NCBI GenBank assembly: GCA_037349315.1
Contig: JBAIAC010000056.1
Span: 472,501 to 536,500, forward strand
Direction: 5' to 3'
DNA length: 64,000 nucleotides
Source: Chelydra serpentina
Taxonomy: Eukaryota; Chordata; Testudines; Chelydridae
Part shown: piece by piece, positions 15,086-21,000 of the stretch
Layout: every line of letters starts with the position of its first letter
Numbering within the stretch: position 1 is the first letter of the stretch
Made by a program: the position numbers and the translations under genes
Notes under the pieces: model-generated
Database searches by the model: none
Seen by the model: the letters and a program-made list of their open reading frames with translations, nothing else
What the model was told of the DNA's origin: nothing

Positions 15086-18000
15086 TTACAGCCAGCAGTC
15101 GCTGCTCTCGGTGGGGACCCCCGTCACCTTGAACTCATCCACCTGGAAGACCCAGCGGCCCTGAACCCCGACGTTGCTCGTCTGCCCGATGTGGAGGATG
15201 GCGTCAGTGCGGGAGCCCGGGATGTTGTAGAAGTTTTTGTCGTCGCCGCTGTTGAAGCCAGCCTGAGGGCAGACACACGGGGAGCAAATGTGAATGCAAT
15301 AGCCTGTTGCAGCACCCCCTACTGCCATGCTGGGGTATTAGGACAGCACTGACAATGAGGGGAGAGCGCCCCCTACTGAGCCCCCAGCCCGCTCCCTGCA
15401 GCACAGCGCCCCCTACTGAGCCCCCGGCCCGCTCCCTGCAGCACAACGCCCCCTACTGAACCCCTGGCCTCCTCCCTGCAGCACAGCGCCCCCTACTGAG
15501 CCCCCGGCCCGCTCCCTGCAGCACAGCGCCCCCTGCTGAGCCCCCCGGCCTCCTCCCTGCAGCACAGCGCCCCCTACTGAACCCCCGGCCCGCTCCCTGC
15601 AGCACAGTGCCCCCTACTGAGCCCCCGGCCCGCTCCCTGCAGCACAGCGCCCCCTACTGAGCCCCCGGCCCGCTCCCTGCAGCACAGTGCCCCCTACTGA
15701 GCCCCCGGCCTCCTCCCTGCAGCACAGCGCCCCCTACTGAGCCCCCGGCCCGCTCCCTGCAGCACAGCGCCCCCTACTGAGCCCCCGGCCCGCTCCCTGC
15801 AGCACAGCGCCCCCTACTGAATCCCTCTGCCCCGTTCCCTGCAGCACAGCGCCCACTACTGAGCCCCCGGCCCGCTCCCTGCAGCACAGCGCCCCCTACT
15901 GAACCCCCCTCCCCGATCCCTGCAGCACAGCGCCCCCTACTGACCCCCCGGCCTCCTCCCTGCAGCACAACGCCCCCTACTGACCCCCCCGCCCCGTTCC
16001 CTGCAGCACAGCGCCCCCTACTGAACCCCCGGCCTCCTCCCTGCAGCACAGCGCCCCCTACTGAACCCCCCGCCCCGTTCCCTGCAGCACAGCGCCCCCT
16101 GCTGACCCCCCCGCCCCATTCCCTGCAGCACAGCGCCCCCTACTGAACCCCCCTCCCCGCTCCCTGCAGCACAGCGCCCCCTGCTGAGCCCCCGGCCCGC
16201 TCCCTGCAGCACAGCGCCCCCTACTGACCCCCCGCCCCGTTCCCTGCAGCACAGCACCCCCTACTGAATCCCCGCCCCGTTCCCTGCAGCACAGCGCCCC
16301 CTACTGAACCCCCCTCCTCGTTACCTGCACCACAGCGCCCCCTACTGACCCCCCGCCCCATTCCCTGCAGCACAGCGCCCCCTACTGACCCCCCCGCCCC
16401 GTTCCCTGCAGCACAGCGCCCCCTACTGACCCCCCCGCCCCGTTCCCTGCAGCACAGCGCCCCCTACTGAACCGCCGGCCTCCTCCCTGCAGCACAGCGC
16501 CCCCTACTGACCCCCCGCCCCATTCCCTGCAGCACAGCGCCCCCTACTGACCCCCCCGCCCCGTTCCCTGCAGCACAGCGCCCCCTACTGAACCCCCGCC
16601 CCGTTCCCTGCAGCACAGCGCCCCCTACTGAACCCCCCGCCCCGTTCCCTGCAGCACAGCGCCCCCTACTGAACCGCCGGCCTCCTCCCTGCAGCACAGC
16701 GCCCCCTACTGACCCCCCCGCCCCATTCCCTGCAGCACAGCGCCCCCTACTGACCCCCCCGCCCCGTTCCCGTCAGCACAGCGCCCCCTACTGACCCCCC
16801 GCCCCGCTCCCCGCAGCACAGCGCCCCCTACTGAACCCCCCCGCCCCGTTCCCTGCAGCACAGCGCCCCCTACTGAACCCCCCTCCCCGTTCCCTGCAGC
16901 ACAGCGCCCCCTACTGACCCCCCGCCCCGTTCCCTGCAGCACAGCGCCCCCTGCTGAGCCCCCTCCCTTCTCCCTGCAGCACAGCGCCCCCTACTGAGCC
17001 CCCGGCCTCCTCCCTGCAGCACAGCGCCCCCTACTGACCCCCCCGCTCCGTTCCCTGCAGCACAGCGCCCCCTACTGGGCCCCCGCCCTGTTCCCTGCAG
17101 CACAGCGCCCCCTACTGACCCCCCCGCCCCGTTCCCTGCAGCACAGCGCCCCCTACTGAACCCCCGCCCCGTTGCCTGCAGCACAGCGCCCCCTACTGAA
17201 CCCCTCCTCCCCTTTCCCTGCAGCACAGCGTCCCCTACTGACCCCCCGCCCCGTTCCCTGCAGCAGAGCGCCCCCTGCTGAGCCCCCGCCCTCCTCCCTG
17301 CAGCACAGCGCCCCCTACTGAGCCCCAGGCCTCCTCCCTGCAGCACAGCGCCCCCTACTGACCCCCCCAGCCCCGTTCCCTGCAGCACAGCGCCCCCTAC
17401 TGACCCCCCCACCCCGTTCCCTGCAGCACAGCGCCCCCTGCTGAGCCCCCGCCCTGCTCCCTGCAGCACAGCGCCCCCTACTGATCCCCCGGCCTCCTCC
17501 CTGCAACACAGCGCCCCCTACTGACCCCCCCCGCCCCGTTCCCTGCAGCACAGCGCCCCCTACTGACCCCCCGCCCCGTTCCCTGCAGCACAGCGCCCCC
17601 TACTCACCCCCCGCCCCGTTCCCTGCAGCACAGCGCCCCCTACTGAACCCCTCCGCCCCTTTCCGTGCAGCACAGCGCCCCCTACTGACCCCCCCACCCC
17701 GTTCCCTGCAGCACAGCGCCCCCTGCTGAGCCCCCGCCCTGCTCCCTGCAGCACAGCGCCCCCTACTGATCCCCCGGCCTCCTCCCTGCAGCACAGCGCC
17801 CCCTACTGACCCCCCCCGCCCCGTTCCCTGCAGCACAGCGCCCCCTACTGGGCCCCTGGCCTCCTCCCTGCAGCACAGCGCCCCCTACTGACCCCCTCCC
17901 CGTTCCCTGCAGCACAGCGCCCCCTACTGAGCCCCCGGCCTCCTCCCTGCAGCACAGCGCCCCCTACTGACCCCCCCGCTCCGTTCCCTGCAGCACAACG

Positions 18001-21000
18001 CCCCCTACTGGGCCCCCGCCCCGTTCCCTGCAGCACAGCGCCCCCTACTGAACCCCCGCCCCGTTCCCTGCAGCACAGCGCCCCCTACTGACCCCCCCGC
18101 CCCGTTCCCTGCAGCACAGCGCCCCCTGCTGAGCCCCCGCCCTCCTCCCTGCAGCACAGCGCCCCCTACTGAGCCCCAGGCCTCCTCCCTGCAGCACAGC
18201 GCCCCCTACTGACCCCCCCGCCCCGTTCCCTGCAGCACAGCGCCCCCTACTGGGCCCCCGGCCTCCTCCCTGCAGCACAGCGCCCCCTACTGACCCCCCT
18301 CCCCGTTCCCTGCAGCACAGCGCCCCCTACTGACCCCCCGCCCCGTTCCCTGCAGCACAATGCCCCCTACTGACCTCCCCGCCCCGTTCCCTGCAGCACA
18401 GCGCCCCCTACTGAACCCCTCCGCCCCTTTCCGTGCAGCACAGCGCCCCCTACTGACCCCCCCACCCCGTTCCCTGCAGCACAGCGCCCCCTGCTGAGCC
18501 CCCGCCCTCCTCCCTGCAGCACAGCGCCCCCTACTGACCCCCCCGCCCCGTTCCCTGCAGCACAGCGCCCCCTACTGAACCCCCGCCCCGTTGCCTGCAG
18601 CACAGCGCCCCCTACTGAACCCCTCCTCCCCTTTCCCTGCAGCACAGCGCCCCCTACTGACCCCCCCGCCCCGTTCCCTGCAGCACAGCGCCCCCTACTG
18701 AACCCCCGCCCCGTTGCCTGCAGCACAGCGCCCCCTACTGAACCCCTCCTCCCCTTTCCCTGCAGCACAGCGTCCCCTACTGACCCCCCGCCCCGTTCCC
18801 TGCAGCAGAGCGCCCCCTGCTGAGCCCCCGCCCTCCTCCCTGCAGCACAGCGCCCCCTACTGAGCCCCAGGCCTCCTCCCTGCAGCACAGCGCCCCCTAC
18901 TGACCCCCCCGCCCCGTTCCCTGCAGCACAGCGCCCCCTACTGACCCCCCCACCCCGTTCCCTGCAGCACAGCGCCCCCTGCTGAGCCCCCGCCCTCCTC
19001 CCTGCAGCACAGCGCCCCCTACTGAGCCCCAGGCCTCCTCCCTGCAGCACAGCGCCCCCTACTGACCCCCCCGCCCCGTTCCCTGCAGCACAGCGCCCCC
19101 TACTGACCCCCCCACCCCGTTCCCTGCAGCACAGCGCCCCCTGCTGAGCCCCCGCTCTGCTCCCTGCAGCACAGCGCCCCCTACTGATCCCCCGGCCTCC
19201 TCCCTGCAGCACAGCGCCCCCTACTGACCCCCCCCGCCCCATTCCCTGCAGCACAGCGCCCCCTACTGACCCCCCGCCCCGTTCCCTGCAGCACAGCGCC
19301 CCCTACTCACCCCCCGCCCCGTTCCCTGCAGCACAGCGCCCCCTACTGAACCCCTCCGCCCCTTTCCGTGCAGCACAGCGCCCCCTACTGACCCCCCCAC
19401 CCCGTTCCCTGCAGCACAGCGCCCCCTGCTGAGCCCCCGCCCTGCTCCCTGCAGCACAGCGCCCCCTACTGATCCCCTGGCCTCCTCCCTGCAGCACAGC
19501 GCCCCCTACTGACCCCCCCCGCCCCGTTCCCTGCAGCACAGCGCCCCCTACTGACCCCCCCCGCCCCGTTCCCTGCAGCACAGCGCCCCCTACTCACCCC
19601 CCGCCCCGTTCCCTGCAGCACAGCGCCCCCTACTGACCCCCCGCCCTGCTCCCTGCAGCACAGCGCCCCCTACTGATCCCCCGGCCTCCTCCCTGCAGCA
19701 CAGCGCCCCCTACTGACCCCCCCCGCCCCATTCCCTGCAGCACAGCGCCCCCTACTGGGCCCCCGGCCTCCTCCCTGCAGCACAGCGCCCCCTAGTGACC
19801 CCCCTCCCCGTTCCCTGCAGCACAGCGCCCCCTACTGACCCCCCCGCCCCATTCCCTGCAGCACAGCGCCCCCTACTGAACCCCTCCGCCCCGTTCTCTG
19901 CAGCACAGTGCCCCCTACTGACCCCCCACCCCGTTCCCTGCAGCACAGCGCCCCCTACTGACCCCCCACCCCATTCCCTGCAGCACAGCGCCCCCTACTG
20001 AACCCCCTTCGCCCCGTTCCCTGCAGCACAGCGCCCCCTACTGAGCCCGCCCCCTCCTGCAGCACAGCGCCCCCTGCTGAGCCCCTGTCATGGCTCACGG
20101 CACCACCTCGTGCCACTTTCCTCTGTTTGCTGTAGAAGGGGACCTACCTGGGCGGGAGTGCCCCCTAGGCCGGTGTTGGCATCTCCGCCACTCGCTTTGC
20201 CGGTGGTCCACTGGATTGTGCCATAGTTCAGCATGATGAAGGTGACTTTGCCGCTGTTTGCCAGCACGGCCTGGAATGTGTTCACCTGCAGCGGAGAGGG
20301 AAGGGACCTGGGTGAACCAGTCTGGGAGGTGGGAGGGGACTCCTGCATGGTGGAAGGTTGTGGGAGGACAAGGCTAGGTGCCTGCGGGAGGCTGGCCCAT
20401 GGCAGCCTAGCCCTGGCCTCCCATCCGTGCTGTGCTAAGTATAGGTGCCAATGAAACCCACTGGTCAGCAGGTGGGACAGATTCTATGGGCAGACCCCTA
20501 GTGGTGACCATAGGGGGCCTTGGGGAATGAGGCGCCACCTACCTTCTGGGAGGTGGAACCATAGTAAGCCACGCGGTCCCAGGTGGCCACGAAGGCCCAC
20601 GTGGCGGTGAAGGGGATCGCCGGGAAGTACTGGTTGATGTCACTGGTGAGGCGGCGCAGCAGCTCGGGGTCCTGGGTCTCCCGGTAGTAGACGTCCCCAT
20701 GCAGGTTGTTGTTCACATCACCCCAGTAGGGGGCCACAAAGGGGCGGCCATCAGCCAAGGGGAAGGGGTCGGGGGTGTACTGGGAGACCGCCACGCCAAA
20801 GGACACCACGCCATTGTTGTTCACCTGTGGGGGCGGGGAGCAGAGCGGTGGATGTAGGAACACAGCGGAGCATGGCTAACCCCCTCCTTGCAGCACAGCA
20901 CCCCCCACTGAGCCCCCCTCCTGCTCCCCGCAGCACAGTGCCCCTCTACTGAGTCCCCCGCCCCGCTCTCTGCCCCGATGAGCCCCCTTTCCCATTCCCC

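Follow-up and report, generated by a model that had tools for sequence, protein, structure and literature searches.

Repeats that carry CTCF sites have been described in several forms. The mammalian retrotransposons B2, SINEC_Cf and MAR1_Mdo carry CTCF sites (PMC3368268), human simple repeats or VNTRs with clustered CTCF-type sites are bound by CTCF and BORIS (PMC5007689), and the DXZ4/Dxz4 macrosatellite is a tandem array with CTCF-type sites, built from kb-scale units at one X-linked locus (PMC3491370). Bound mammalian CTCF sites also lie close together in tandem or clustered form (PMC7087399, PMC6945661). The locus studied here lies in a 64,000-nucleotide stretch of Chelydra serpentina DNA (the window) and shares something with each of these. 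As with the retrotransposons, a dispersed repeat brings a CTCF-like motif to many loci, but the carrier is ~95 bp long, usually has two cores, is often tandem and has no longer element body that could be found in its flanks; high-copy 40-bp arrays appear to grow from it, and its sites are putative. As with the human VNTRs, CTCF-type sites are clustered in tandem repeats, but one common unit with a traceable parent is found at many loci, again with putative sites. The 40-bp unit, the many loci and the intronic position in the window separate the array from DXZ4-type macrosatellites. With 116.5 head-to-tail copies of 40 bp, it falls among minisatellites or VNTRs (units of ~10-100 bp). Several motifs lie close together as in the mammalian clusters, whereas those sites are bound and these are putative copies of one unit.

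TRF placed a period-40 tandem array at 15365-20085, which corresponds to C56:487865-492585, with 116.5 copies and 88% matches. A first-pass annotation had proposed about 115-120 tandem CTCF-like cores in one orientation at 15340-20080, inside an intron; an array is present there, its limits were slightly off, and its number, orientation and position were borne out. A core scan allowing up to three mismatches gave 119 matches. Two of them, the decayed core at 15311 and a match at 20046 that is no core, are not units, which leaves 117 core-bearing units of ~40 bp, all on the minus strand and within one intron. Between 15365 and 20030 the 115 intervals measured 40 bp (66 times), 41 bp (31), 42 bp (16), 39 bp (once) and 43 bp (once), and the last two cores were irregularly spaced. 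Exact copies of TCAGTAGGGGGCGC numbered 84 on the minus strand, and the plus strand had none. For the units said to fit the CTCF core at all 14 positions, CTACTGGGCCC was present at five places (17072, 17845, 18005, 18247 and 19752), but the full CCASYAGRKGGCRS was found in four, the 18005 unit with AACGCC being one position off. The CpG noted in each core was kept in 110 of 115 units. Exact internal repeats reached 278 bp. The array fills 96.6% of a 4885-bp intron of a NIDO-domain gene, and its cores read in the sense direction of that gene (Table 1). A PDB search with the NIDO domain gave no match, and no protein matched a translation of the C-rich strand of the array.

Table 1. Coordinates of the array, its host gene and related repeats in the window
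Feature	Position	Strand	Basis or remark
Relative of the parent repeat in tandem, 71-bp period, 2.3 copies	11177..11340	+	
NIDO-domain exon directly 3' of the array intron	15090..15262	-	splice signals, reading frame
Intron of NIDO-domain gene, 4885 bp	15263..20147	-	splice signals, NIDO reading frame
Parent-repeat relic (decayed core1 and middle segment), adjoining the first array unit	15309..15364	+	
Array, 117 core-bearing units, mostly 40-42 bp	15365..20085	-	CTCF-like core and G-rich strand both read on minus
NIDO-domain exon directly 5' of the array intron	20148..20285	-	splice signals, reading frame
NIDO-domain exon, second 5' of the array intron	20543..20824	-	splice signals, reading frame
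Decayed related units upstream of the exon ending at 20824, in the inferred preceding intron	20880..20973	+ (C-rich strand given)	sequence comparison
Decayed tandem copies of the ~95-bp parent, 73-80% identical	60081..60345	-	one shuffled control: 0 matches
One more decayed parent-repeat copy	60622..60711	-	

The resemblance to CTCF sites survived scoring with a reconstruction of the JASPAR matrix MA0139.1. With this reconstructed matrix 113 of 117 units passed p<=1e-4, 90 passed p<=1e-5 and five passed p<=1e-6, so the stretch is a cluster of several matrix-grade motifs; all matches in the array were on the minus strand and none on the plus strand. The window outside the array had 35 sites at 1e-4, where about 12 were expected under independence, and two at 1e-5. 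Among 5000 dinucleotide-preserving shuffles of the unit with 20 additional bases, the highest score was 16.05, short of the 16.4 of the consensus, and 0.28% scored at least 13. Matrix position 4 was T, not C, in nearly all units. The human matrix should apply, since the zinc-finger exons of CTCF in this genome equal human CTCF over 303 of 315 residues (six exons cover query residues 1-303, residues 304-315 are uncovered, and mismatches occur only where alignments overrun exon borders); by this exon comparison the zinc fingers that recognise the human motif are present in the CTCF of this species. For the same reason CTCF binding to the array units is plausible. We put occupancy in vivo at even odds and consider a measurable boundary or loop-anchor effect unlikely.

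An exact 21-mer of the unit had 397 matches in the genome (reversed control, 0), and arrays of the 40-bp unit were found at other loci, one of which, at C23:41472478-41481073, was 8.6 kb long. Copy numbers at the separate loci ranged from about 5 to 222. Thirteen arrays or remnants were compared, the window array included, and in each the matrix sites (score >=8.6) were on one strand only; an array-like stretch with nine weak cores, none of them exact (C290:4815-5351), was excluded. The nearest neighbour was in the same array for 192 of 209 units sampled from nine arrays, and the arrays have been homogenised separately. A literature search by title gave, among the matches listed, nothing on this repeat or on turtle CTCF arrays.

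The likely parent is a dispersed ~95-bp repeat, for which a consensus made by eye was used, and it usually has two CTCF-like cores that face the same way and lie at distances of ~40 and 55 bp. A sister module of the parent had 551 exact genome matches, the first 100 of which were listed (reversed control, 0). The 20 parent-type loci that were read had repeat lengths of 61-97 bp, plus single copies; core2 was matched in 14 of them with up to five mismatches allowed and some poor scores, and a core2 match was absent at six (L026, L030, L035, L036, L038 and L045). The 40-bp unit corresponds to the core2-to-core1 segment of the parent with a hybrid core, in which CAGCAC comes from core1, AGCGCCCCCTA is common to both and CTGAG comes from core2. 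The hybrid core scored 16.45 with the matrix, compared to medians of 14.6 for core1 (n=116) and 12.9 for core2 (n=63). The parent junction had 170 exact matches, one of which (C56:487859, position 15359 of the window) is at the left edge of the window array, and the relic listed in Table 1 scored 22, the best of 200 mononucleotide shuffles 13. The parent middle segment was found at an edge of six of the 11 arrays tested, namely the window array, at its left edge, and five others. No parent relic was present at either edge of the other five (C23, C56:9k, C56:367k, C56:1656k and C104).

Since the unit is the core2-to-core1 segment with a hybrid core and relics stand at six of 11 arrays, duplication between the cores most likely built up the window array where it now lies. 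We favour, at a probability of roughly 0.6, a minisatellite that grew inside a pre-existing dispersed ~95-bp repeat, with CTCF expected on a changing subset of its units. The starting point would be a parent copy in its fuller form, in which core2 is followed after ~40 bp by the next core1. Both cores contain an identical AGCGCCCCCTA, and slippage or unequal exchange there would duplicate the 40-bp segment between them and make the hybrid core; later unequal exchange could expand it to 117 units. We infer this slippage or exchange step, and the direction from 95 bp to 40 bp. CTCF, in the germline perhaps BORIS/CTCFL, would then occupy a changing subset of units where the array is unmethylated. 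Cohesin, and possibly the polymerase transcribing the NIDO gene, may then meet a barrier that is polar and graded. Occupancy is expected on two grounds: a credible CTCF motif is retained on one strand in nearly every unit, and a two-part CTCF site of 33/34 bp (PMC3368268) fits within one unit. For the five arrays that had no relic at either edge in-place birth is thereby not supported, and these might have moved as ready-made arrays. A shared mobile-element body was looked for in the flanks by BLAST, at a resolution too coarse for short parent relics. The flanks of 10 arrays (up to 4 kb, some shorter) showed no homology at the array edges besides other repeats and duplicates. Masked flanks of the ~95-bp unit at 20 parent-type loci had nothing long in common outside L030/L035/L036, a segmental duplication, and L043/L045, which share 178 bp at 84%; other matches measured 23-50 bp.

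The first-pass annotation had suggested that the array could act as a strong insulator, loop anchor or chromatin block, in effect a singular, purpose-built element. A strong, dedicated element of this kind, kept by selection, would fit the one orientation throughout, the 113 of 117 units at 1e-4, the intact core CpGs and the CpG o/e of 0.58 in the array compared to 0.38 in the rest of the window, and tandem (PMC7087399) and clustered (PMC6945661) CTCF sites are described in mammals, the former as insulating. However, recent homogenisation could also leave CpGs intact, and the many loci and in-place birth account for the array without selection. Within the window array, non-consensus cells made up 29 of 1610 in the CTCF half of the unit and 15 of 1265 in the other half, so the CTCF half is no better conserved. 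Nine distinct core substitutions did not differ significantly from random ones in mildness for CTCF (P 0.13). Between 18 loci, with two segmental duplicates dropped and core1 left out because the loci were fetched through it, conservation was 0.75 in core2, compared to 0.66 in the middle segment and 0.645 in the spacer, and core2 ranked seventh among 66 ten-base windows. There was thus no preferential core conservation, either within the window array or between these 18 loci. Because the array belongs to a dispersed family, can be explained by duplication within a two-core parent and has a CTCF half that is not better conserved, a singular insulator is unsupported, and we regard selection for one as very unlikely.

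The G-quadruplex potential of the same strand is a serious rival to the CTCF reading. On this reading the unit would persist because transcribed introns have its G-rich strand as their sense strand, and structure together with slippage would have expanded the minisatellite, the CTCF likeness being inherited and irrelevant. A canonical G4 motif was found in 79 of 115 units on the minus strand and nowhere on the plus strand of the array (outside the array, the window has 27 on plus and 43 on minus). The G4Hunter mean was -1.51 in the array and -0.13 in the whole window, the GC skew of the array was -0.52, and the strand bias was the same in all 13 arrays compared. CCCTGCAGCAC, which lies mostly outside the CTCF motif, was conserved as well as the core. 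However, expansion occurred with little canonical G4 at C104 (36 units, one G4), C126:2675k (29 units, four) and C21 (13 units, four), and the duplication endpoints, as read from the sequence, are the cores, not the G-runs. We hold this reading to be possible but doubtful. Less probable still is that recombination is seeded by the CTCF-like core itself, with a dispersed two-core repeat repeatedly spawning high-copy, one-orientation arrays as a self-propagating CTCF-site repeat, perhaps helped by CTCF/cohesin-linked breaks at the core. The genome would then make new CTCF anchors recurrently by slippage, without new insertions.

A germline role was also considered, in which clusters bound by BORIS/CTCFL would act as alternative testis start sites for a truncated transcript of the NIDO gene. 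In the array, 45 of 115 units contain GGGGCGGGG, presumably a GC box, and the genome has a CTCFL-like gene, although this label comes from four exons, from residue 100 onward, that match human CTCF at 62-80% identity. In human, clustered intronic CTCF sites become BORIS-dependent promoters (PMC10832218), and most repeats co-bound by CTCF and BORIS were simple repeats of a kind that counts as VNTRs (PMC5007689). We judge this reading highly improbable.

If bound, the arrays would be a natural CTCF dosage series of near-identical sites, one orientation each, at ~5 to 222 copies. The effect of copy number and spacing on cohesin blocking, and the recurrent seeding of boundaries by repeats, would become directly testable. 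Even if unbound, the family would illustrate how one minisatellite can arise at several loci from a two-motif repeat, the parent being still visible at some edges.

A REST site was set aside, as a comparison by eye rather than with a matrix found no more than the right half of the NRSE consensus in the unit. An immunoglobulin switch-like region was raised because in one protein match, P0001 of Gopherus evgoodei (7994 candidates scored, those sharing most words), the translated array continues directly into an IgH constant domain. The exon after that intron is presumably CH2, by domain order, so the intron would be an ordinary one; the window gene is unrelated, and the switch-like reading was dropped for the window array. 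Immunoglobulin introns in this genome and in Gopherus carry relatives too. In two independent cases, the NIDO gene and the immunoglobulin introns, the cores lie on the sense strand.

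The first-pass annotation had reported about 115-120 CTCF-like cores, all in one orientation, within an intron. The array was indeed located between two exons of a NIDO-domain gene, whose three minus-strand exons jointly matched Pfam NIDO at 5e-65, and it filled 96.6% of the intron. After two non-units were subtracted from 119 core-scan matches, 117 core-bearing units remained, and in 117/117 the core was on the minus strand, which is the sense strand of the gene. The G-rich strand is likewise the sense strand, and a canonical G4 motif was present on the minus strand, the same strand as the core, in 79/115 units. 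When the units were scored with a JASPAR CTCF matrix, 113/117 passed at p<=1e-4, 90/117 at p<=1e-5 and 5/117 at p<=1e-6, and the same scan gave no plus-strand match within the array. Three of the four units that failed the 1e-4 threshold carried TGAG and the fourth a broken G-run. The score of the unit consensus was reached by 0/5000 dinucleotide shuffles of the unit. Five units had been singled out as fitting all 14 consensus positions; four did so, and the fifth missed one position. The best lone CTCF-like site outside the array (window 14673, p 5.5e-7) was about 0.7 kb to its left, on the plus strand and hence convergent with it.

Table. Coordinates of the features; C-numbers denote contigs of the Chelydra serpentina assembly, and other positions refer to the window, which spans C56:472501-536500
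Feature	Position	Strand	Details
NIDO-gene exon	20824-20543	minus	GT/AG borders
NIDO-gene exon	20285-20148	minus	GT/AG borders
NIDO-gene exon	15262-15090	minus	GT/AG borders
Array intron	15263-20147	minus	between exons 20285-20148 and 15262-15090
Window array	15365-20085	minus (core)	TRF 40 bp, 116.5 copies
Array	C23:41472478-41481073		TRF 222 copies, exceeds window array
Array	C56:9187-12287		TRF 77 copies
Array	C56:1656561-1659386		TRF 68 copies
Array	C56:367772-369423		TRF 42 copies
Array	C126:2761831-2763467		TRF 42 copies
Array	C104:4302812-4304229		TRF 36 copies
Array	C126:2675928-2677112		TRF 30 copies
Array	C21:1531560-1532088		TRF 14 copies
Array	C56:758981-759450		TRF 12 copies
Array remnants	two on C36, one at C56:366k		
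Decayed parent copies	60081-60345		
Decayed parent copy	60622-60711		
77-bp minisatellite	10530-11025		TRF 6.4 copies, 99% matches
GC-rich minisatellite	28246-29736		41 bp x 37.7
GC-rich minisatellite	45374-46765		45 bp x 32.9

Across the assembly (2.28 Gb, 806 contigs), the 14-base CTCF consensus occurred 10799 times compared to 130 for its reversed control, and an exact 21-mer of the window unit occurred 397 times with 0 occurrences of the reversed 21-mer. Fifteen stretches were read, taken from 100 listed of the 397 matches and 17 matches of a rarer variant, and three of them (C21:3410978, C56:145840 and C507:119018) had single copies only. In 13/13 arrays or remnants compared, with the window array included and a weak array on C290 left out, CTCF matrix sites scoring 8.6 or more were confined to one strand. 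The nearest neighbour was within the same array for 192/209 units sampled from nine arrays, and thus homogenisation has proceeded separately in each array. Several arrays, among them C56:9k on its right side and C21:1531k on its left, were accompanied within 4 kb by another dispersed repeat family, with a unit of apparently ~72 bp.

A sister module, with TAGTG for TACTG, occurred 551 times in the assembly (reversed control, 0) in tandem repeats of other lengths, which measured 61-97 bp at 20 loci read among 100 listed matches. The fuller form of this parent repeat, ~92-96 bp, has two cores in the same orientation, core1 as CAGCAC-AGCGCCCCCTA-GTGCC and core2 as GGGGAG-AGCGCCCCCTA-CTGAG; core2 was matched in 14/20 loci and gave no match at L026, L030, L035, L036, L038 and L045. 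In a consensus made by eye, the spacing was 40 bp from core2 to the next core1 and 55 bp from core1 to core2. The window unit corresponds to the 40-bp segment, and its core combines the left side of core1 with the right side of core2. The parent middle segment was found at an edge of 6/11 arrays, where in each case it scored higher than any of 200 mononucleotide shuffles, and at neither edge in 5/11. It adjoins the first unit at the left edge of the window array, where one of 170 genome-wide matches to the exact parent junction is located (C56:487859, window 15359). Because parent segments stand at array edges, we infer that the long form came first. Duplication from core to core within this dispersed repeat, two-core in its fuller form, most likely gave rise to the single-orientation CTCF-motif minisatellites, among which the window array is a large member. 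The parent junction was also seen in further arrays at C36:2000475-2001839, C85:247244-248009 and C14:79723045-79724450, with spacings of ~67, ~62 and 75-79 bp, respectively, or multiples of these.

The CTCF zinc-finger exons in the assembly were identical to human over residues 1-303 of the 315-residue query (residues 304-315 lay outside coverage), except where alignment ends ran past exon borders; the assembly also contains a CTCFL-like gene. According to PMC3368268, a CTCF site made up of two parts spans 33/34 bp; therefore, one unit can accommodate one CTCF protein, and proteins on neighbouring units may crowd each other. Binding of CTCF to the array is plausible. The suggestion of a dedicated insulator gained no support from the sequence, as the core was no better conserved than CCCTGCAGCAC (29/1610 versus 15/1265 non-consensus cells in the window array). 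Core substitutions did not have a significantly milder effect on the CTCF match than random ones (P 0.13), and core2 ranked 7 of 66 ten-base windows in conservation across 18 loci, a set from which L035 and L036 were excluded because they duplicate L030. These three tests count against a selected role of the core. Known kinds akin to this family are the SINE-borne CTCF sites of mammals (PMC3368268) and the VNTR-type repeats in human that are bound by CTCF and BORIS (PMC5007689). As far as our searches reach, what is new is a carrier with two cores and the tracing of how the arrays arose from it.

With the array translation as query, one protein was found, an Ig-like protein of Gopherus evgoodei (UniRef A0A8C4YTP6), the first part of which is such an array and the remainder IgH constant domains. 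An intronic minisatellite was seemingly translated as the N-terminal part, which is probably a gene-prediction error. The best-matching Ig exons in the Chelydra assembly were 74-88% identical to this protein, and others much lower. Among seven stretches upstream of Ig exons, modules numbered 13 in L057, 4 in L059, 3 in L061 and 2 in L060, mostly spaced by 35-36 bp or 72 bp. L056, L058 and L062 (the second-contig copy of L056) had one match each, possibly by chance, and precede the most Gopherus-like exons (87-88%). The core was on the sense strand throughout. IgH constant-domain matches were paired on contigs C176 and C248, which suggests two haplotypes or a duplication.

The 77-bp minisatellite in the window is probably recent, given its 99% matches, and the consensus of both GC-rich minisatellites was, by eye, unlike that of the array. 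Two overlapping plus-strand reading frames resembling LINE reverse transcriptase, presumably of CR1 type, were seen at window 11974-14521.
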